Source: Thermoplasmata archaeon
Lineage (GTDB): Archaea > Thermoplasmatota > E2 > DHVEG-1
Assembly: GCA_020054495.1 (NCBI GenBank)
Contig: JAHWGK010000005.1
Span: forward strand, 33,098 to 89,142
DNA length: 56,045 nucleotides
Direction: 5' to 3'
Shown here: piece after piece, positions 4,469-25,820 of the stretch
Position numbering within the stretch: the first letter of the stretch is position 1
Layout of the letters: each line of letters starts with the position of its first letter
Position numbers and translations under genes: made by a program
The notes under the pieces: generated by a model
Databases searched by the model: none
What the model was told of the DNA's origin: nothing
Seen by the model: the letters and a program-made list of their open reading frames with translations, nothing else

Positions 4469-5737
4469 CTAACAAATATTAATATTATTTATAATACTTC
4501 CGACTAGATATGTCGAGGCTGCATCTGTTACACCAACTGGTATAAAATTCCCGATATCTGCTTTTTGTTTCAACACAATGGGTTTGTAGTTTTCTGTTCT
4601 TCCAACAAAAGTGTTGTTTTTACCTTTTTCAGTTATCAGAGCATTGTATTTTTTTCCAACATGCCTAAGATTATTTTCCTGTGAAATTGTGCTACATAAT
4701 TCAGTTAATATTTTTGACCGCTTTTTTGCAACCTCTGTTTTTATCCGTCCTTTCATGGTTTTTGCTTTTGTTTGTGGCCGTGCAGAATACCGTGTAATAT
4801 TTGTAATATCTGGTTTAAATCTATTTAGCAAATCAATGGTGTGTTGGAATTGCTCATCTGTTTCAGTTGGAAAACCAACGATTACATCAGTTGAAATTGT
4901 AATATTTGGGTAATTTTTTCTAAAAATTTTGATAATTTCTAAAAATTCATCAACAGTATATTTCCTATTCATCTTTTTTAATACTTCATTGTCTCCTGAT
5001 TGAACGGGTATATGTAAAAACTTGTAAATTTTTAAATTTTCAAAACCTGTGATAATCGAATCAATATTTTTCAAGACAGTATAAGGGTTCATCATTCCAA
5101 CTCTAACTCTGTATTCTCCCTTTATTTTGTTAAAATTCATGAGCAGTTCACCAAGGTTACGTCCACAATCTAAGCCATATGAGCTAGTATCTTGAGCAGT
5201 GAGCTGTATCTCTTTGCAACCTTGTTTTATTGCGCAACAAACATCTTGAATTATTTCACCCATCGGATAACTTTTCAGCTTACCTCGTGCTAGAGATGTA
5301 ATGCAGTAAGAGCATGTAAACATGCATCCTTCAGCAATTGATATTGGTGCAATTGTGTTTTCATAATATTTTGAAAACAATGTTTTGTTTTTATCAGTAA
5401 AAGATGTTTCTTCATCTTCAATAACGTCTAATATATGATGAGAATATTGAGGGGGCAAGAGTTTTGCATCTGGTAATACTGACCTAATTAAATCAGTTTG
5501 AATAGATGCCATACATCCAGCAACAATGATTTTTTTACCTGTTTTTCGAAAAACCCTCAAACGTGATAACATCCGTTGCTCAGTTGTATCAATCACAGTA
5601 CAAGTGAGTAGAACTATTAAATCAGCATCGTTTATTTTTTCAACAATTACATAGCTGTTTTCTTTTAAAATGCCTAATATTAAACTAGCATCACTCTTAT
5701 TAGCTGTACAGCCATAAACCTCTAAATAGACCTTCAT
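4469..5737 (-). CDS. tRNA threonylcarbamoyladenosine (t6A37) methylthiotransferase, archaeal e-MtaB type
   Basis: A radical SAM enzyme that adds a methylthio group to t6A37 of ANN-decoding tRNAs, giving ms2t6A. Domains in order: an N-terminal MTTase domain with cluster cysteines (VYGCTANKSD, LTCTV, VAGCMA), the radical SAM core with CMFTCSYC at about residue 138, and a C-terminal TRAM-like domain from about residue 355. At 422 aa it has the normal length of the CDKAL1/MtaB-like archaeal family. It lies 26 bases after lysS and 12 bases before gapA, so it is cotranscribed. Assignment to the t6A rather than the i6A (MiaB) branch rests on archaeal context and length. Confidence 0.9.
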   Translation of the reverse strand: MKVYLEVYGCTANKSDASLILGILKENSYVIVEKINDADLIVLLTCTVIDTTEQRMLSRLRVFRKTGKKIIVAGCMASIQTDLIRSVLPDAKLLPPQYSHHILDVIEDEETSFTDKNKTLFSKYYENTIAPISIAEGCMFTCSYCITSLARGKLKSYPMGEIIQDVCCAIKQGCKEIQLTAQDTSSYGLDCGRNLGELLMNFNKIKGEYRVRVGMMNPYTVLKNIDSIITGFENLKIYKFLHIPVQSGDNEVLKKMNRKYTVDEFLEIIKIFRKNYPNITISTDVIVGFPTETDEQFQHTIDLLNRFKPDITNITRYSARPQTKAKTMKGRIKTEVAKKRSKILTELCSTISQENNLRHVGKKYNALITEKGKNNTFVGRTENYKPIVLKQKADIGNFIPVGVTDAASTYLVGSIINNINIC

Positions 5738-5763
5738 GATTAAAACTGCTAAGAGAAAACTTC

Positions 5764-7314
5764 CTATATAACTGCTTCTTCAATTCTTTCTAATACAAAA
5801 TCCTTATTTAAATTTGATAAAAAATAACCAGCACGTGGTCCTTTTTCTTGTCCAAGAATTATCTGATAAATTGTTTTAAATGCTGTTTTTATTGGTATTT
5901 TTTCTTTTTCTGACGAATCATAGATTATTTTATGTATATCTTCAGCCTCCCAGTCTACGGAAGACAATTTCCCTGTAAGAGCTAAAAGGAATTTTTTCTG
6001 CTCTTTAGCAAGATCAACTTTTGGAAGTTTCTTTTTTACTTCAAATTTTACTATATCTGGGGCAAAATTATCTAACCAGTATCTTGCGTGTTCTGCTCTT
6101 TGCTTTAAATGATTCTCGTCGTCCTTACTCAAATCCTTTGGGATTTGCTTTGTTCTTAAAAGAATTTTTTTCACTTCATCCCAACTTTCTCCAATCTGAA
6201 TAAGTGTAACCAAATGTCGATATGGAAGTTGATATGGTATTGTTTTAGGATAATTACGCAGCTGTGAAAGCTCATAGGTTTTCTTTAGATCTTTCATTCC
6301 TTTCGTTGCTTCTTCTTTTCCAAAGTATACTCTTTCTTCTTTATCATATTCGTCTACTAAATTAAGAAGGCCAAGACCAGAATCAAATACAAGATGTTTA
6401 CCAGGTTGATTGTTCATCAGCAAAAATCTAAGTACCTCTGGAGGGGTCATAGCAAGCATTTCTCCAGCACTTAATGCTGTACCTTTAGAGCTATGCATTG
6501 CTCCTTCCCCCTTCAGCATTATAAACTCATAAACTGTGTATTTTGGTGCAGGATATCCATATATTTCTTCTACTATTTTTTCACCGGTATCTCTTGCTCC
6601 TCCAACTGTTCCAAGATCTTTACCAAAAGGTTCAAAGGTCACTCCAAGCATTTTCCATCGTGCTGGCCAATCAACTCGCCATGGAAGTTTTCCAACACCT
6701 CCTTTCGTTATATCTACTTCTCCTTCGTAACCACAGTCACATTTATATTCAATAATTGGGTAGTCGTAAAGAACTGCTTTTGCAGCAGTTAATTTCTTAC
6801 ATTTCTCACATCTAACATTAAACGGGATCCAACCTTTTGGAAGCTGTCTTTTTGATATTTTTTGTATGATTTCTTTTATTTTATCAGTGTTTTCCAATGC
6901 TATCTGAATTGCTTGGTTGTAATCTCCATTTTTATACATCTCATTAGCTCTATAGACATGAGGCTTTACACCAATTTCTTTCAAAGAATTTAAAAACGAG
7001 ACTAGGTAGTGATCAGCATAACTCTTGTGTTTTCCGCATGGACATGGAATATCAGAAATTGGCATTCCAACATATTTTTCATAGGATTTGGGAAGATAAG
7101 GATAGACTTTTCTTAAGGGATCATAGTCATCAGCTACATAGGTAAGCTCTCCATCTCCACCCTTGTCAATCAGACATCTATATACTGCATCTGTTGTTAA
7201 TATCTCACGCATGTTACCAATATGAATTGGGCCAGATGGAGTTATACCTGTAGCAAGAACATGCTTTTTTTCTTCTTTTAGTAATTCATCAGCTAAAACA
7301 TCTGCCCAATGCAT
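5764..7314 (-). CDS. lysS: Lysyl-tRNA synthetase, class I
   Basis: Charges tRNA-Lys with lysine. It is a class I type, found in most Euryarchaeota and a few bacteria, and unrelated to the class II enzyme. The HIGH signature is HIGN at residues 31-34 (preceded by GITPSGPI). The KMSKS counterpart is MHSSKGTAL near residue 275. A zinc-binding region with CPCGKH and CEKCKK...CDCGYEG is visible. At 516 aa it is typical for the family. It sits between the GfcR-like regulator (26 bases upstream) and the methylthiotransferase. The combination with gapA is a housekeeping operon rather than a pathway. The stop is TAG. Confidence 0.96.
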   Translation of the reverse strand: MHWADVLADELLKEEKKHVLATGITPSGPIHIGNMREILTTDAVYRCLIDKGGDGELTYVADDYDPLRKVYPYLPKSYEKYVGMPISDIPCPCGKHKSYADHYLVSFLNSLKEIGVKPHVYRANEMYKNGDYNQAIQIALENTDKIKEIIQKISKRQLPKGWIPFNVRCEKCKKLTAAKAVLYDYPIIEYKCDCGYEGEVDITKGGVGKLPWRVDWPARWKMLGVTFEPFGKDLGTVGGARDTGEKIVEEIYGYPAPKYTVYEFIMLKGEGAMHSSKGTALSAGEMLAMTPPEVLRFLLMNNQPGKHLVFDSGLGLLNLVDEYDKEERVYFGKEEATKGMKDLKKTYELSQLRNYPKTIPYQLPYRHLVTLIQIGESWDEVKKILLRTKQIPKDLSKDDENHLKQRAEHARYWLDNFAPDIVKFEVKKKLPKVDLAKEQKKFLLALTGKLSSVDWEAEDIHKIIYDSSEKEKIPIKTAFKTIYQIILGQEKGPRAGYFLSNLNKDFVLERIEEAVI

Positions 7315-13790: not shown

Positions 13791-14690
13791 ATGGATAACA
13801 ATATCTATGAAAAGTATAAACTTGCAGGTAAGATTGCAGCGGAAGCTAGGGATTATGGATTAAACTTGATAAAACCTGGTGTGAGTTTTTTAGATGCCGT
13901 TAATAGTATGGAATTAAAAATATTAGATAGTGGAGCGGGTCTTGCATTTCCTGTTAATATTTCAGTTAATGAAATAGCTGCTCATTACAGTCCAAGACAT
14001 AATGATGCATTAGTTTTTAAAAAAGGGGATGTAGTTAAATTAGATATCGGTGCTCATGTTGATGGATATATTGCAGACACTGCAATAACTGTTGAAGTTG
14101 GTACCAATAACTATGAAGATATGATTAAAGCATCAAGTGGTGCATTAGACGTCGCAATTAATACTATTAAAGCAGGCATTGATCTTTTTGAAATTGGAAA
14201 AACTGTACAAGATACCATTATGTCATATGGCTATAAACCAATTGACAATCTCACAGGACATAGTATGCAGAGATATATACTTCATGCAGGAATGTCTGTC
14301 CCAAGTGTTCCAGATAGGTTACAAAGCGCTAAGCCTAAAGCCGGGGATGTTTTAGCAATTGAGCCATTTGCAACTAATGGCGCGGGTCATGTTATTTCTG
14401 GAGATGGAAGCAATATTTATTTGTGTAAGGAATCTTTTAACCCACGGCTTATTAGAACTAAAAACGCTGAAATTATTTTTAGCAGAATGAAAAGTAAATT
14501 TAAAACCCTTCCATTTGCTCAGAGATGGTTTGAAGAATTTTTTTCTCGTAGCAGTACAACATTAAGAAAGCTTTCTTTTTTAGGTCTTATTAAACATTAT
14601 CCACAACTTATTGATGCTAAAAAAGGAATTGTTACTCAAAAAGAACACACCGTTATATTAACTGAAGAAGGATGTGATGTGATAACGTGA
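13791..14690 (+). CDS. map: Methionine aminopeptidase, type II
   Basis: Removes the initiator methionine from nascent proteins. 299 aa. Metal ligands are visible in KLDIGAHVDGYIADTAITV (two Asp), GHSMQRYILHAG (His) and AIEPFATNG (Glu). The C-terminal Glu lies in the final third (VTQKEHTVILTEEG). The ~60-aa insertion after GHVISGDGSN marks type II, the archaeal/eukaryotic form. The ATG at 13791 is chosen because it gives the family N-terminus (MDNNIYEKYKLAGKIAAEAR). The 3' end overlaps the next gene by 4 bases. Confidence 0.95.
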   Translation: MDNNIYEKYKLAGKIAAEARDYGLNLIKPGVSFLDAVNSMELKILDSGAGLAFPVNISVNEIAAHYSPRHNDALVFKKGDVVKLDIGAHVDGYIADTAITVEVGTNNYEDMIKASSGALDVAINTIKAGIDLFEIGKTVQDTIMSYGYKPIDNLTGHSMQRYILHAGMSVPSVPDRLQSAKPKAGDVLAIEPFATNGAGHVISGDGSNIYLCKESFNPRLIRTKNAEIIFSRMKSKFKTLPFAQRWFEEFFSRSSTTLRKLSFLGLIKHYPQLIDAKKGIVTQKEHTVILTEEGCDVIT

Positions 14691-15547
14691 AAAATAAAAC
14701 CATTCAAAAAAATGATATAAAGATTATCAAATTCGAAGAGCTTAACTGGAAACAAATAGAAGGATTGGATAAGAATAAAACAATCTTCTTTTTACCCATT
14801 AGCCCACTTGAGGAGCATGGTCCTCATTTGCCTGTTGGAACTGATTTGTTGGCCATTCGAGATGCAACTACTGAAGCTATTAAAATTTTAAATAAAAAAA
14901 ACCCTGATTTAACCTATGTCCTCTTACCTGCAATACCTATTGGTTATTGCAAATTTAACACGGATTTTCCAGGTAGCATCTCTGTCAGTGGGAAAGTGGT
15001 TCGTGAAATAGTTTACAGTGTTGGCTTGGCTCTTGCAAATCATGGATTCAAATTTTTAATTATTTGCACGTATCATATGGCAGTTGGACATCTAAAAGGC
15101 ATATATTCTGCAATGGATAAGCTAGAATCCAAGTTTGATATAAAAACATGTGAACCCTGGAGTCCTTATTTTCACAACAAAGAAATGGAGAAACGTGAGC
15201 CAAAACTTGGTTTTGATACCCGTAAAGAAGTACATGCTGGTTTCCGAGAAACCTCTCTTATGAAATATCAATATCCATATCTTGTTGATGAGTCCTATAA
15301 GAATTTACAAAGTATATATAGAGATATGAACTCTCCCCGAGTACTTGGAAAAACATTCAAGCAACTGGGTTTAAAAGATGGATATATCGGTAGTCCTGCA
15401 AAAGCAGATGCTGGTTATGGTAGATGGTTTTTCAATGAAACTGTTAATGTTTTTGTTAAATCTGCACTTGATTTATATGGAGGAAAAAAACCACCTGAAT
15501 TACCATTGCGTATTAAAACTGCTATGAGAGCACTTTTTTGGCAATAA
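14687..15547 (+). CDS. Creatininase-family amidohydrolase (MftE/ArfB superfamily)
   Basis: 286 aa, GTG start overlapping map by 4 bases. The metal-binding signature LEEHGPHLPVGTDLLAIRDA at about 43-62 gives Glu, His and Asp ligands. A further ligand region is EVHAGFRETSLM near 185-196. The superfamily includes creatininase, the archaeal FAPy deformylase ArfB used in riboflavin/F420 synthesis, and MftE, the peptidase that trims the modified mycofactocin precursor. Its 3' end faces the radical SAM/peptide locus 93 bases away. Two roles are reasonable: an ArfB-like metabolic enzyme carried with map, or a peptidase for the neighbouring peptides. The sequence alone does not decide. Confidence 0.82.
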   Translation: MKNKTIQKNDIKIIKFEELNWKQIEGLDKNKTIFFLPISPLEEHGPHLPVGTDLLAIRDATTEAIKILNKKNPDLTYVLLPAIPIGYCKFNTDFPGSISVSGKVVREIVYSVGLALANHGFKFLIICTYHMAVGHLKGIYSAMDKLESKFDIKTCEPWSPYFHNKEMEKREPKLGFDTRKEVHAGFRETSLMKYQYPYLVDESYKNLQSIYRDMNSPRVLGKTFKQLGLKDGYIGSPAKADAGYGRWFFNETVNVFVKSALDLYGGKKPPELPLRIKTAMRALFWQ

Positions 15548-15640
15548 ATCCTGTTAGATATGATAGTCTAAAACTTAGTTAACTGGTTTTTTGTTTCTCA
15601 AGAGATTTTCCTGATTAAATTATTTAACTTATCTAAAATC

Positions 15641-16678
15641 CTAAAGTTCTTTCTCGATTTGGTAAAAACAACAAGGGTCGTTATGGGGTATACCTGTCAT
15701 GCAGGTCGACCTAGTCGTGCATCCCCCTTTGCATTCTTTTCCATATTTGCATTGTTGGCAGTTTTCTCCTAGATCTTCAACTTTAAATTTACGATTATAA
15801 GCAAAAGCGTTTGGATCATTCCAAATTTCTTTTATACTTCGCTTCTTGACGTTTCCTTCTATATAATCATCAGATAATGCAAGACATCCTTTGATGTTTC
15901 CATTGCTCTGGATTCCTAAAACAGTTTTTCCAGCATAGCAGCCCTTCCATTCAGGATAGGTGCTTAAGTTTGGAATTACTTTTGAATGAAATCCAAAATT
16001 ATGTGTTCCAACAATTGAAAATTTTTTTTTATTATACTTTTTTTGCAATGAATAAATAAATAGACCTAGTGAATAATACTCCTCGTTTGATAATACTAAT
16101 TCTTTTGGAAATCTACCAATTGGTGCTGCATCCTGAATTTGCCATATAACTTCTTCTTTAATGACAAAATCTAGGATTTTTGGTAGCTCCTTAAAATTCA
16201 ACTTGTGTACTGTGGTGATAATACCTACAGATAAACCTGCTTGTTTTGCTGCACGCATAAATGCCTTTGCTTTTTCAAATGACCCTTCAACATTTCGAAT
16301 TTTATCCTGTGTTTTAGCTGATGCACCATCAAGACCAAGCATTAGACAATCTGTTTCTAGTTTTACCAGCTCTGGAATGAATTTTTCTGGTTTAAAAAAA
16401 CCATTAGTAATTATTGATAGTGCAATTCCAAGATCTTTGATTTCTTTTGATATAACTGACCAATCTTTTCGTAAAAACACTTCACCTCCCATCAATGCTA
16501 TCCCTCCGAACCCTAAATCAGAAAGATCGTGACAGAGTTGAAGAGCCTCCTTAGTGGATAACTCGTCAGTTCTTTTTTTTCCAGCCGAGGAGCCACAATG
16601 AAGACATTTTAGATTACATTTGAGAGTCAACTCCCATACTGCTATATGAGGGTTCTGATAAGATTCTGTCAGGTTCAT
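15641..16678 (-). CDS. Radical SAM/SPASM peptide-maturase-like protein 2
   Basis: 345 aa. The radical SAM core has the [4Fe-4S] motif CNLKCLHC (Cys21, 25, 28). The auxiliary-cluster SPASM region covers GCYAGKTVLGIQSNG, GCLALSDDYIEGN, and CQQCKYGKECKGGC...CTTRST...DPCCF near the C-terminus. SPASM proteins of this size act mainly on peptides (sactipeptide, PqqE and mycofactocin MftC types). It is a close paralogue of the upstream radical SAM gene; long stretches such as EIWNDPNAFAYNRKFKVE are identical. The ATG at 16678 lies 17 bases after that gene's stop and gives matching N-termini. Location beside three paralogous small peptides suggests it modifies them; that is inference. Confidence 0.9.
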   Translation of the reverse strand: MNLTESYQNPHIAVWELTLKCNLKCLHCGSSAGKKRTDELSTKEALQLCHDLSDLGFGGIALMGGEVFLRKDWSVISKEIKDLGIALSIITNGFFKPEKFIPELVKLETDCLMLGLDGASAKTQDKIRNVEGSFEKAKAFMRAAKQAGLSVGIITTVHKLNFKELPKILDFVIKEEVIWQIQDAAPIGRFPKELVLSNEEYYSLGLFIYSLQKKYNKKKFSIVGTHNFGFHSKVIPNLSTYPEWKGCYAGKTVLGIQSNGNIKGCLALSDDYIEGNVKKRSIKEIWNDPNAFAYNRKFKVEDLGENCQQCKYGKECKGGCTTRSTCMTGIPHNDPCCFYQIEKEL

Positions 16679-16694
16679 TCTATCACATATAATC

Positions 16695-17747
16695 TCATTT
16701 GCTTTTTTGGAGCAATTCGGGTTCGATTTTGTAAAAACAATATGGATGATTATGAGGTTTATTAGTAAATCCATATGACATGCCCAAACATCCACCTTTA
16801 CAAGTTACACCATATTTACAATCTTTACAATTTTCCCCTAGTTTTTCAACTTTAAATTTTCGATTATAAGCAAAAGCGTTTGGATCATTCCATATTTCAA
16901 TGATACTTTTATTCCGAATGTTTCCTTCTATGTAGGCTTCAGGTGTTGAAAGACATCCAATAACATCTCCATTGCTCTTTATGCTTAAGATGGATATCCC
17001 AGCTTGACAGCCGTCCCATCCCTGATAAAGACCAAGCCATGGAAGATGTTGTGAATGGTATCCAAAACAATGTGCACCAATAACGGGTAGCTCTTTTACT
17101 GAATACTTTTTTTTCATTGATGCAATAAAGAGTGCAACAGAATAATATTCCTCTTTTGATAAAGCAAATTTGTTTGTAAATCTTCCTTCTGGTGTGGCGA
17201 TTTGAATTTGCCAAGCTATTTGTTTATTGAGAATAATATCTCTAATTTCTGGTAATTCTTTTAAATTCAATTTACTGACTGTAGTTATTATTGTTGTAGG
17301 TAAATTCTCCTTTTTAGATAGTGAAATATATTTCATTACTTTTTCAAATGACCCGTTTACTCCCCTTATGTAGTCGTGTATCTCTGCTTTTGCACCATCT
17401 AAGCTTGTTGAAACACTATGTGGGTTGAGTTCTTTTAATTTAGAAATTATCTCTTTACTAATGTTATAACCATTTGAAATAAATAGGAGTTTCATCCCAA
17501 GATCTTTTATCTGTTTTGCAATAATATGCCAGTCTTTTCTTAAGAATGGCTCACCACCCATTAAACATACGCCATCGGTTTTTAACTCTGCAAGATCGTT
17601 ACAAAGCTGAAGTGCCTCTTTTGTTGTTAATTCATTAGGACGGGCTTTACCTGCTGAAGAACCACAATGTAAACATTTTAAATTGCATCGAAGGGTTGTC
17701 TCCCAAACAACTTGTCCTGGGATATATTTTTGTTTTGAGTTAGTCAT
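16695..17747 (-). CDS. Radical SAM/SPASM peptide-maturase-like protein 1
   Basis: 350 aa. CNLKCLHC (Cys21, 25, 28) binds the SAM cluster, and GGEPF follows as the usual SAM-contact motif. The C-terminal SPASM domain has GCQAGISILSIKSNGDVIGC and CKDCKYGVTCKGGC...PYCF for auxiliary clusters. AAGGTGTG precedes the ATG. The gene lies downstream of three small peptide genes on the same strand, 135 bases after the last, and 17 bases before its paralogue. Two tandem paralogous maturases are unusual and could modify different residues or act as a heterodimer. Confidence 0.9.
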   Translation of the reverse strand: MTNSKQKYIPGQVVWETTLRCNLKCLHCGSSAGKARPNELTTKEALQLCNDLAELKTDGVCLMGGEPFLRKDWHIIAKQIKDLGMKLLFISNGYNISKEIISKLKELNPHSVSTSLDGAKAEIHDYIRGVNGSFEKVMKYISLSKKENLPTTIITTVSKLNLKELPEIRDIILNKQIAWQIQIATPEGRFTNKFALSKEEYYSVALFIASMKKKYSVKELPVIGAHCFGYHSQHLPWLGLYQGWDGCQAGISILSIKSNGDVIGCLSTPEAYIEGNIRNKSIIEIWNDPNAFAYNRKFKVEKLGENCKDCKYGVTCKGGCLGMSYGFTNKPHNHPYCFYKIEPELLQKSK

Positions 17748-17881: not shown

Positions 17882-18058
17882 TTATTTGAAATCTTTGATG
17901 CTTGTTGTTCCGTACCAACTGCTACAATAATTATTTGGACCTGCCGAAAGATAGGGTTGTTCAATTAGAGCACTGTTATCTTTTATGATATAATCAATAT
18001 CTTTTTTACTCAATCCAATCTGTTTGCAATACTTATACAATAGATTCATTTTTTTCAT
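17882..18058 (-). CDS. Putative RiPP precursor peptide 1
   Basis: 58 aa. A Lys-rich N-terminal half carries CKQIGLSKKDIDYIIKD. The C-terminal half reads SAGPNNYCSSWYGTTSIKDF plus a final Lys. It aligns with the two peptides at 18230 and 18571 over the GL(S/N)K motif and the C-terminal YGT(I/T)SIK(D/E)F. The ATG at 18058 is chosen because GGTGAT, a perfect anti-16S match, lies 6 bases upstream. A longer start 12 bases upstream would place that site inside the gene. It is not a known family to me. The precursor role is inferred from size, paralogy and the adjacent radical SAM genes. Confidence 0.72.
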   Translation of the reverse strand: MKKMNLLYKYCKQIGLSKKDIDYIIKDNSALIEQPYLSAGPNNYCSSWYGTTSIKDFK

Positions 18059-18229
18059 GCTTATCACCAATTGATAAAAAATCGGTTATTTATTATAAAG
18101 CTGCTGTCCAAATAATAACAAAACTTGTATTTCAATGTCCTCATAAGATATACCTTGTTATTATAGTAAAAAATTGATATTAAATTGTTGTAATAATAAC
18201 AAAATTTAATTTAAATCTTTTTAACAAAT

Positions 18230-18409
18230 TTATTTTTCAAATTCTTTAATGCTTATTGTTCCGTAACGTCCTCCTGGATACCAAGACGGGCCTGATGAAA
18301 GAGAAATTTGTTCATACACTGTATCGCTTAATACCTGAGTAATATCATTCTTGTTAAGTCCAACCATTTTTCCAAGTTGATGAATTTTGAGTTTGAAAGT
18401 ATTGTTCAT
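18230..18409 (-). CDS. Putative RiPP precursor peptide 2
   Basis: 59 aa, with ATG at 18409 and GAGG about 12 bases upstream. The N-terminal half (HQLGKMVGLNKNDITQVLSD) resembles the leader-like half of its neighbours. The C-terminal half is SSGPSWYPGGRYGTISIKEF followed by EK. It shares GP, Tyr, and YGTISIK(E/D)F with the other two peptides but lacks the Cys-Ser-Ser segment. That argues against a thioether as the common modification. Codons of the shared motif differ at silent positions, indicating selection on the protein. Confidence 0.7.
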   Translation of the reverse strand: MNNTFKLKIHQLGKMVGLNKNDITQVLSDTVYEQISLSSGPSWYPGGRYGTISIKEFEK

Positions 18410-18465
18410 TTGAATCCAATCCTCTTTTTACAAAAGTAATGTAACAACCACAAGTATTTATATTG

Positions 18466-18473
18466 TATATAAA
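18466..18473 (-). promoter_or_regulatory. TATA box for peptide 2
   Basis: TTTATATA on the minus strand lies 57-64 bases before the ATG of peptide 2. It suggests that this peptide has its own promoter within the cluster, which would give higher expression than the enzymes. Confidence 0.45.
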
Positions 18474-18570
18474 CAAATGTAACAAATAATCAGTATTTTG
18501 TTTCATATGGAACATTTGCTTTTATATGAAAAATACGCGTAATTTTTCTGAAATATATTTTGAATCTTTG

Positions 18571-18756
18571 TTAGAAGTCTTTGATGCTGATTGTTCCGTA
18601 ATAACTAGAACAATACATAGGACCGTCTGAAAATAAGATATTTTCTTCTCTTCTTGTATTATCTCTGATGATGTGATCTACCTCTTTTTTGTTTAATCCT
18701 AGTTTTTTTATAGCTCTATCAAGCTTTTGCCCTATTATTTTGTTATTATGTGACAT
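18571..18756 (-). CDS. Putative RiPP precursor peptide 3
   Basis: 61 aa. It starts MSHNNKIIGQKL, continues with KKLGLNKKEVDHIIRDN, and ends SDGPMYCSSYYGTISIKDF. The ATG at 18756 is preferred to one 57 bases upstream: GTGAT lies just before it, and the start then matches the other two peptides in length. This is the first of the three peptides in transcription order, 60 bases after the PaaK-like gene. It shares the MYCSSYYG-type core with peptide 1. No database family is recognised. Confidence 0.72.
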   Translation of the reverse strand: MSHNNKIIGQKLDRAIKKLGLNKKEVDHIIRDNTRREENILFSDGPMYCSSYYGTISIKDF

Positions 18757-24368: not shown

Positions 24369-25820
24369 ATGAAAATGAGAATATTAACGATATCTATAGT
24401 AGGAATGTTTTTGATGACAGGTTTTGTAGGAATGGCTACTTCATCGAAAATAGGTCTGGGGGAGAAACCCTATACAAAAATAGGTAGTTTAATAGAAACC
24501 TTAGATCCTAATGAAAAAAAACTTTCAAATATTGCAATTGCGGATTGGACTGTTATGTATTATATGTGTGGAGATTCAAATATGGATAGTTACATACAAC
24601 CACTTCTTGATACTCTCTCTAATATTGGATCAACGGAGAAACTCAACATTGTTGTTTTAAAGGACAACTTATATTCGGGTAATTCGAAATTATACTACGT
24701 CAGTGAAACTGGAGAAAAAATTGAATTAAACGATAAATTTGGTTGGCCTGATGAAGTAGATATGAGTGATTTAAACATTCTTGAGTTATATTGCATTCAA
24801 ATGATGGAATTTTATCCTGCCGCTCATTATGCGTTAATTACGTATACATCTGCAGGAGCCGGATGGCAGGAATTTTTTTTATTGGATAAAGATAATACAG
24901 GGGATAAAATATCAACTCCTGATTTTGCACAATGTTTAAAGAGTATTGTTGATGAAGTAAATCATAAAATTGATGTTCTTTTTGTTTCATGTGCAATGAA
25001 TACAATTGAGCTTGCATATGAGATTGTTTCTTATGTTGATTATATTGTTGGTAATCAAGATTGCTTTTCAGAAGAGTCTATTGTTCCAAGATTTTCTGAG
25101 GCAGTTTGGGACCTAAGGAATGATACTGATATGAGCCCTGAAGAGTTTTCAAATAGAGCGCCTTACCGATTTGAACCTGAACCATTTTATTATTGGGAGG
25201 GTTATGGTTTTAAACTTCCATTATTAAGTAGAATCCTAAATAAGCTTCCTTTTAAGGGTTTACATACAGTCATTATATATCCTTCCTCATCAGTTATTAA
25301 CCTAAGTAAAATAAATGAGCTGGTAAACAAAATTAACGATTTATCATTAAACTTAATTATTAACTTGCAAAGTGGAAAATATAAAGAGGCAATAAGAAGA
25401 GCTAGAGAAGAAACGCAGGAATATAGTAAATGTTATTCAAAATATTGGTTTTTATCCTCAATTTATAATCGTTATGGTTTTAATATTTTAGCATATGATT
25501 GCGTTATAGATTTGTATAACTTTATTGAAGTTCTAAGATATTATATTGATAATGAGTTTATTAAAAATCAATGTAATTCCATTTTGGAATCTTTTAATGA
25601 GGTAATTCCTGCAATTAAAAAAGTATCATATGACAATTCTAATGGTTTAAGTATATATTTTCCTACACATAAAAAAATGTATAATAAATACATAGGCCGT
25701 AAAGAGATACCTTGTCCTTATGAAGATTTAAAATTTTTAAAAGATACATATTGGGATGAATTTCTAAAAACATTTTTAGATATTTTAAAAAAACATACCA
25801 CTAGACCTATCTATTATTGA
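24369..25820 (+). CDS. Secreted clostripain-like (peptidase C11) protein, catalytic His position altered
   Basis: 483 aa with an N-terminal signal peptide (RILTISIVGMFLMTGFVGM). The C11 fold is recognisable from WTVMYYMCGDSNMDSYI (60-76), LNIVVLKD (92-99) and the Cys motif DVLFVSCAMNTIELAYEI (Cys208). The family usually has a catalytic His in a W-(D/N)-HG-x-GW block. Here the matching block is TYTSAGAGW (158-166) with Ala162 in the His position. It is therefore probably not an active cysteine protease of the usual kind, although the Cys is kept. It sits between two other secreted proteins. GGGAGGTAGG precedes the start. Confidence 0.8.
   Translation: MKMRILTISIVGMFLMTGFVGMATSSKIGLGEKPYTKIGSLIETLDPNEKKLSNIAIADWTVMYYMCGDSNMDSYIQPLLDTLSNIGSTEKLNIVVLKDNLYSGNSKLYYVSETGEKIELNDKFGWPDEVDMSDLNILELYCIQMMEFYPAAHYALITYTSAGAGWQEFFLLDKDNTGDKISTPDFAQCLKSIVDEVNHKIDVLFVSCAMNTIELAYEIVSYVDYIVGNQDCFSEESIVPRFSEAVWDLRNDTDMSPEEFSNRAPYRFEPEPFYYWEGYGFKLPLLSRILNKLPFKGLHTVIIYPSSSVINLSKINELVNKINDLSLNLIINLQSGKYKEAIRRAREETQEYSKCYSKYWFLSSIYNRYGFNILAYDCVIDLYNFIEVLRYYIDNEFIKNQCNSILESFNEVIPAIKKVSYDNSNGLSIYFPTHKKMYNKYIGRKEIPCPYEDLKFLKDTYWDEFLKTFLDILKKHTTRPIYY

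Follow-up and report, generated by a model that had tools for sequence, protein, structure and literature searches.

PlpX acts with the RRE protein PlpY to excise tyramine from X-Tyr-Gly (PMC11002830); its natural sites are MYG and LYG (PMC10533398), and the precursors of these spliceotides are Nif11 or nitrile-hydratase-like (Morinaka 2018; PMC11002830, PMC10533398). Spliceotide products have been called protease inhibitors (PMC11117315, PMC10373908), and an earlier review stated that no natural spliceotide had been isolated and that no role was known (PMC8868522). A review states that Scott et al. (2022, Chem, doi 10.1016/j.chempr.2022.09.017) report the splicease reaction from throughout the bacterial kingdom. 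The RiPPs known from archaea are few. MftC and PqqE are SPASM enzymes whose short peptide substrates contain a key Tyr.

In this work we analysed a window of 56,045 nucleotides from a Thermoplasmata archaeon (contig JAHWGK010000005.1). It contains three short peptide genes flanked on one side by a tandem radical SAM (rSAM)/SPASM pair and on the other by a PaaK/CapK-like adenylating enzyme (Table 1). This locus resembles the PlpX/PlpY systems in having a SPASM rSAM and a precursor in which Tyr-Gly is conserved and preceded by a variable residue, and in that several splice events per precursor would be possible; in addition, the rSAM clade of the window shares the WQxQ and WxGC residues with the nif11_3 clade (TIGR04103), which we take to be the PlpX splicease family from its LYG core and its neighbours. 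It differs from them in that the nif11_3 enzyme found is only about 36% identical, the leader is different, the archaeal cassette adds a second rSAM, a TPR-methyltransferase and CapK with no PlpY noticed, and the archaeal core runs on into [IV]SIKDF, while other groups of the tail family have Ser, Ala, Tyr or Phe after the second Tyr of the core (Y2).

A second comparison is with the GDL/DUF1843 loci (TIGR03913) of Azospirillum (L208) and Aureibacter (L210), where three tandem peptides of 56–64 amino acids lie upstream of one SPASM rSAM, x-Y-[GAM] occurs in 6/6 peptides and, in Aureibacter, a class I methyltransferase follows the rSAM. The DUF1843 annotation was confirmed by Pfam for one peptide of each locus. 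However, these DUF1843-family peptides have the motif near the N-terminus, the GDL rSAM is only 32–33% identical and longer (474–518 aa), and a second rSAM or CapK is absent from the stretches seen. TIGR04133 with its rSAM-associated putative lipoprotein (Treponema, L212) offers a SPASM gene beside a small lipoprotein, as in the Elusimicrobia loci described below, but rSAM1 of the window scores 163 bits against a cut-off of 425, TIGR04133 lies on a very long tree branch and the Treponema lipoprotein weakly matches other domains. The mycofactocin/PQQ systems (L214) differ by lower rSAM scores and other partner genes.

The peptide genes and their cassette

Table 1. Features of the peptide cassette in the window
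Feature	Start	End	Strand	Length	Remarks
Precursor peptide 1	17882	18058	minus	58 aa	ATG at 18058; core YCSSWYGTTSIKDFK; Trp before Y2
Precursor peptide 2	18230	18409	minus	59 aa	core YPGGRYGTISIKEFEK; Arg before Y2
Precursor peptide 3	18571	18756	minus	61 aa	ATG at 18756; core YCSSYYGTISIKDF; Tyr before Y2
rSAM1, radical SAM/SPASM enzyme	16695	17747	minus	350 aa	rSAM and SPASM cysteines present
rSAM2, radical SAM/SPASM paralogue	15641	16678	minus		56% identical to rSAM1
CapK/PaaK-like adenylate-forming enzyme	18817	20202	minus	461 aa	

A sequence-only reading of the window had proposed that three ORFs on the same strand encode 58- to 61-aa peptides of a new precursor family adjoining SPASM rSAM genes. 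The three ORFs and their coordinates were confirmed, the peptides are homologous and align end to end, and the existence of the family is supported, the modification itself being still inferred. The GL[SN]K[KN][DE] block and the YGT[IT]SIK[DE]F tail that were said to be shared are present in 3/3 peptides, while the GPxxY attributed to the core is found in peptides 1 and 2 only, peptide 3 having GPMY. Core codons do vary silently, as claimed (ATA, ATC or ATT for Ile, GAT or GAC for Asp); the Tyr-Gly-Thr of the tail is TAC GGA ACA in all three peptides, with no codon variation. It was also correct that peptide 2 has no Cys in its core, and the argument that a modification common to all three cannot be a Cys thioether, Tyr-based chemistry being likelier, held as well, Tyr2 being present in all cores collected. 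Two findings had been named as refuting, and neither was made: none of the sampled genomes of the phylum had clear copies but no enzyme of the rSAM clade, and in the libraries that were searched the tail resembled neither a known DNA-binding family nor a ribosomal one. That reading covered only a small part of the family, as the tail is also found on membrane-type, lipoprotein-like and Kunitz proteins of other phyla.

An A+T-rich, TATA-like stretch (judged by eye) precedes each peptide gene, and for this reason the three genes may be transcribed separately. In the AlphaFold model of peptide 3 (7-row alignment, mean pLDDT 63) the leader forms two helices, at residues 3–18 and 23–43, and pLDDT is under 50 across residues 39–55.

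The peptides recur in the genome of the same organism (assembly G000), which shows that they are not chance ORFs: at least five extra copies lie elsewhere in the assembly, one of them truncated by a contig end. A search with one peptide found copies on contigs C204 (the window), C166, C237 and C168, and a profile search added one copy on C168, truncated at the contig end, to the two whole copies of that contig. The C237 copy (L051:6005–6181) stands alone, and its start codon overlaps the end of the preceding ORF, which we take to be hisI (recognised by eye).

The start of rSAM2 is inferred to be the ATG at 16678 and not the listed position 16795, because homology begins near 16675. The AlphaFold model of rSAM1 (pLDDT 92) has SkfB, PqqE and SuiB as its best PDB Foldseek matches; this predicted likeness of fold supports peptide modification but no particular reaction. 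Nine loci of the window's own family (f1), the window included, were mapped: peptides, the tandem rSAM pair and CapK are each present in 8/9, the three together in 6/9, and a methyltransferase in 7/9. The exceptions are L058, which has rSAM1 alone, L063 (a 10.6-kb contig), which is without CapK, and L063 and the window, which are without the methyltransferase; L049 shows no peptides because its contig starts inside rSAM1, so that any peptides would lie off the contig. The cassette methyltransferase is about 435 aa long, and the one examined has TPR repeats and weak methyltransferase matches. Positions 15547–15641 of the window contain no cassette methyltransferase; the syntenic locus L055 (G010) has one at 5561–6916. 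L049 is a second cassette of the window's own genome, on contig C228, with a truncated rSAM1, rSAM2, the methyltransferase, a third rSAM and a second CapK, and it may be, by inference, that C168 is its missing start. The full cassette is also present in G266, which belongs to another family within the same class. Neither a protease nor an exporter was recognised among the cassette genes, no PlpY-like RRE partner was noticed among the cassette ORFs (no dedicated RRE search was made), and Pfam scans of the window rSAMs, one methyltransferase and two further rSAMs revealed no RRE domain.

The proximity of SPASM rSAM genes and short peptides is also what would be expected if the peptides gave rise to a redox cofactor, as the precursors of PQQ and mycofactocin do, and if the creatininase-family neighbour (14687–15547) were an MftE-like peptidase; the match of this protein to the MftE model is weak, with 50.8 bits for a cut-off of 172. 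We consider this explanation highly improbable. The creatininase gene lies on the opposite strand and recurs only in the syntenic L055 (window and 19 loci compared), the many paralogs with differing cores in each genome do not suit a single cofactor, and the rSAMs score far under the cut-offs of the mycofactocin and PqqE models. With the MftC model the window rSAMs reach 118 and 135 bits for a cut-off of 265, so that mycofactocin membership is not met, and no match to MftA was found among 36 peptides.

Co-occurrence of the peptides with one radical-SAM clade

Among 60 relatives, the first peptide profile detected clear copies in G000, G010, G018, G027, G029, G030, G033 and G034, and rSAM1 at 65% identity or more was found in these same eight genomes only. 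The exception is G009, whose peptides, leaderless and multi-core, escaped the first profile, and which carries an rSAM2-type enzyme only (this MAG is 83% complete). In a 389-genome sample of the phylum, clear soluble peptides were found in 12 genomes, all of them among the 23 that have the rSAM clade (defined as E 1e-90 or better). The P value of this co-occurrence, 6e-17, is not corrected for shared ancestry, related genomes not being independent, and the peptide and rSAM counts come from two 389-genome samples that were taken as identical (same count and handles). In ten of the other 11 rSAM-clade genomes the enzyme is accompanied by a precursor of another type; in G037 no precursor was seen beside the rSAM, and the contig stops just past the gene. 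Clear soluble peptides without the rSAM clade were not found in the sampled genomes of the phylum, to which the search for soluble copies was limited. Some peptide copies are distant from every rSAM gene of the same genome.

Weak peptide matches in six genomes were judged to be chance and excluded from the co-occurrence count: they lie inside ORFs of 329 and 622 aa (G005, G026) or of 113, 506 and 440 aa (G031, G159, G305), or in a 34-aa frame (G001:C149).

The tail as the conserved part of the precursors

The peptides match what is expected of RiPP precursors: in several genomes their short genes adjoin the gene of a probable modifying enzyme, they consist of a leader and a core, and the core can be repeated. 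The consensus of the core is Y1-x3..7-Y2-G-[TSA]-x-S-x-x-[DE]-[FL], and only Tyr1, Tyr2 and the Gly after Tyr2 are strictly invariant in an alignment of 36 peptides from 8 genomes. In three position-matched G010/G034 pairs, the core has a pN/pS of 0.083/0.46 and the leader one of 0.181/0.47. L063 precursors have tandem cores, with two and three units of YKAGTxYGTVSxKD, the L111 precursor has four core units of 15 residues, and in L058 and L116 precursors are fused head-to-tail as double precursors. In G009 the leader is gone, and peptides of 26 and 27 aa end with YKSGGGYGTISIKEF. The tail is thus likely to be the functional unit of the precursors, because cores repeat, the leader can vanish and the core has a lower pN than the leader.

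Of 57 cores gathered with an expression, three turned out to be chance ORFs and were left out of the entropy count. In the remaining 54 soluble cores the residue after Y2 is Gly in 53 (the expression allowed G or S), and the residue X before Y2 is Tyr in 15, Arg in 11, Phe in 8, His in 6 and others in the rest, which corresponds to 3.0 bits; positions −4 and −6 are as variable as X, with 3.4 and 3.1 bits respectively.

No Pfam match at E 0.01 was obtained for any of the 36 peptides, which excludes them from the DUF1843 precursors by that measure, and no family or chain in Pfam, NCBIfam or PDB covers the peptides. The isolated weak matches come from one member in NCBIfam (E 0.0019), one member in PHROGs (E 0.003) and a PDB profile search (E 0.023).

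The same tail in other archaea and bacteria

A collection of 84,980 species genomes was scanned with the rSAM alignment, and the 80 best loci were taken with rSAM similarity as the sole criterion. These loci come from Thermoplasmatota, Thor-, Loki- and Helarchaeota, Elusimicrobia, Syntrophus, Smithellaceae, Nitrospiraceae and others. The tail expression was met in 66/80 loci (129 ORFs, not each inspected), compared with 0–2 ORFs per set when these 80 loci were simulated ten times with a first-order Markov model; neither form of the motif is present in nine of the 80. The tail expressions were written post hoc, after the sequences had been seen, about ten of the 80 loci belong to genomes already used, several Asgard loci are near-copies of one another, and the assignment of membrane helices and lipoboxes rests on inspection by eye, without a predictor.

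In Thorarchaeota the tail is present on small ORFs beside the rSAM, behind a hydrophobic stretch (YVPGTDYASIRPKDFL, TYVPGSLYGTISPRDF), and Lokiarchaeota have a like tail in the same arrangement (VYPRGTLYSSISLKDF). In Elusimicrobia it is on lipoprotein-like proteins (GYPCGTRYYTVSPKDF) in 11/12 of the cluster, L146 being without it. In four bacterial loci, all from MAGs (L147, L152, L155 and L162), the tail is C-terminal to a Kunitz-type domain (TYPVSKYGGVSIRDF), in ORFs that have an N-terminal leader and lie just before the rSAM or overlap its start. The Pfam Kunitz model is matched with 3.7e-15 in L152, 1e-13 in L155 and 22.5 bits in L162 for a cut-off of 21, L147 being just below it with 19.9. 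A methyltransferase whose start resembles that of the archaeal cassette (by eye) is present in 18 of the 27 bacterial loci examined. Closer to the window, nine loci of its own family have a single rSAM and a membrane-type precursor ending with YxxxSxxDF, and L202–L205, from its phylum, have an rSAM-clade enzyme and several precursors that contain two hydrophobic stretches and terminate in xYG[VA][YFH]; three of these four have a methyltransferase in the stretch fetched. An AbrB-like ORF (by eye, MNSI..LD.RGRLV) is found just upstream of membrane-type or soluble precursors in L071, L073 and L079.

The residue that follows Y2 varies between these groups. Gly is found in 14/14 cores of L202–L205 and in 4/4 Kunitz cores (expressions that allowed G or A), in 21/29 Thor cores, and in only 1/9 membrane-type cores of the window's own family. 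In Loki it is Ser in 34/35 distinct cores and Gly in 1/35, and in Elusimicrobia it is Tyr or Phe in 11/11 cores and Gly in 0/11. The presence of Y1 in 100% of the Thor, Loki and Elusimicrobia core sets is by construction, because the expressions required it.

One could suppose that the peptides are unmodified helix–turn–helix-like regulators or antitoxins and that the rSAM genes are chance neighbours. The leader is indeed predicted to be helical by AlphaFold, and weak helix–turn–helix matches exist (PF20317, E 0.068; phrog_1381, E 0.003, in 1/36 members). Nevertheless, some peptides have lost the leader and kept the tail, the highest conservation is in the tail and not in the helices, and the link to one rSAM clade holds across phyla, all of which make this explanation very hard to sustain.

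Relatedness of the enzymes

In a 77-row rSAM tree, rSAM1 forms one clade (9 rows, support 96/99) and rSAM2 another (9 rows, support 91/87). The 17 groups of the tree, defined by taxon or precursor type, require 17 changes for a minimum of 16, and the nif11_3/GDL clade is placed next outside the rSAM clade of the window. The deepest order is uncertain because outgroup branches are long and the four outgroup rows do not fall on one side of a branch; the TIGR04133 row, which falls inside the tree on a branch of 5.4, adds to this doubt. The best model scores of rSAM1 and rSAM2 are with TIGR03913 (GDL) and TIGR04103 (nif11_3), far below both cut-offs: 218 and 219 bits for the window rSAMs with TIGR03913 (cut-off 592), and, with TIGR04103, 211 for rSAM1 and 189 for rSAM2 (cut-off 725), so that membership of the PlpX type is not met. 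In a scan of seven rSAMs, the two of the window and five of other groups, the highest scores were 228/725 bits for nif11_3 and 219/592 for GDL. The best named plasmid-record matches are from Agathobacter (36%), Nostoc (nif11_3, 36%) and Azospirillum (GDL, 32–33%); the Nostoc nif11_3 gene adjoins a Nif11 precursor ending with SIALYGLPPELF (ALYGLPPELF) and a 71-aa ORF.

When 67 rSAMs of the clade were compared with four nif11_3/GDL-type enzymes and four outgroups, Q180, Q182, W244 and G264 were common to the first two sets and absent from the outgroups, and the WQxQ signature is common to this clade and the nif11_3/GDL enzymes. With only four splice-type and four outgroup sequences, the argument drawn from WQxQ is limited.

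Proposed reaction and alternatives

We propose that the three window genes encode RiPP-type precursors, whose N-terminal helical leader would be recognised by the maturation enzymes and whose modified part would be the C-terminal tail, Y1-x-x-[GS]-x-X-Y2-G-T-[IVT]-S-I-K-[DE]-F. The two tandem SPASM rSAM enzymes would act on this tail, in a splicease-type reaction that would excise tyramine (−135.08 Da) at Y2, and X, by our own inference, would become the specificity residue of a protease-inhibiting product. The inhibitors would be small and soluble in the window and probably membrane-held or lipoprotein-borne in relatives. What is shown is the gene family, the tail, the co-occurrence with the rSAM, the multi-core and leaderless precursors and the Kunitz fusions. 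That the peptides are post-translationally modified at all is an inference in which we have strong confidence. Splicease-type chemistry on the tail is inferred as well, and the case for it is balanced by the case against. A set of protease inhibitors is the role that suggests itself because such products are reported to inhibit proteases; this too is inferred, and we are inclined to doubt it rather more than to accept it. Taken as a whole, from RiPP precursors through rSAM tail splicing to protease inhibitors, the explanation is as likely to fail as to stand.

The main objections concern the motif and the role. Tyr2-Gly preceded by a variable X is merely consistent with splicing, because the expression required G or S and because positions −4 and −6 are equally variable, and the lack of Gly in most Loki, Elusimicrobia and membrane-type cores counts against X-Y-G as a strict rule. 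For the inhibitor role the support comes from citing reviews and from the Kunitz fusions, which fit this role but amount to four loci in distant bacteria.

It is possible, though less probable than splicing, that another rSAM reaction acts on the same tail and yields a constrained or D-residue peptide instead of a ketoamide, either by cross-linking Tyr2 to Tyr1 or to the side chain of a neighbouring residue, or by epimerising the conserved Ile/Val or Ser. In support of this possibility, both Tyr are invariant in the 36-peptide alignment, Y1 is present in Asgard ORFs beside the rSAM, found without a motif filter, in which Gly after Y2 is often absent, and SkfB, SuiB and PqqE are among the best solved folds for rSAM1. 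These three enzymes make cross-links or thioethers. Against it, Y1 is missing at −5/−6 in 7/9 membrane-type cores of the window's own family and is replaced by Phe in 1/4 Kunitz cores, and the closest named enzymes by sequence are the nif11_3 and GDL maturases. Two particular chemistries were excluded: a universal three-residue cyclophane at Y2, as the residue at Y2+2 is Gly in 2/4 Kunitz and 5/9 membrane-type cores, and a Cys thioether (sactipeptide or ranthipeptide) as the common chemistry, as core Cys is absent from peptide 2 and from most relatives.

Splicing remains our preferred reading, with confidence that is no more than evenly divided: the peptide system would work like the spliceotide system, yet it fails the family cut-offs and we do not count it as a member.

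Novelty and prospects

Searches of the literature on archaeal and Asgard rSAM RiPPs, on Kunitz domains with rSAM and on spliceotides found no description of the family, overlap with Scott et al. (2022) being unchecked, and searches on TIGR04103/TIGR03913 and DUF1843 found no description of the peptides either. The precursors and enzymes of the family are now listed for further use. Should the splicease reading prove true, the variants in which Ser, Ala, Tyr or Phe follows the Tyr would show how much departure from X-Y-G tyramine splicing tolerates, and the Kunitz fusions would make a natural role of spliceotides directly testable. The rSAM may also be useful for site-specific protein modification, because one tail motif has been moved onto very different proteins.

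A bolder reading, which we put forward only as a possibility, is that a tail-splicing system of Thermoplasmatota, Asgard archaea, Elusimicrobia and syntrophic bacteria makes ketoamide protease inhibitors. It is likewise conceivable that the tail, placed on soluble or membrane peptides, lipoproteins and Kunitz proteins, would give inhibitors that differ in their P1 residue, made within the cell or exposed at its surface. If so, the family could provide the first archaeal example of such chemistry and the first case in nature of a Kunitz domain combined with a ketoamide warhead.

The Arg of peptide 2 is a putative P1 residue and, although a link between the two is untested, a clostripain-family (C11) peptidase is encoded nearby, at 24369–25820 on the plus strand (PF03415, 9.7e-21), about 6 kb from the peptides.
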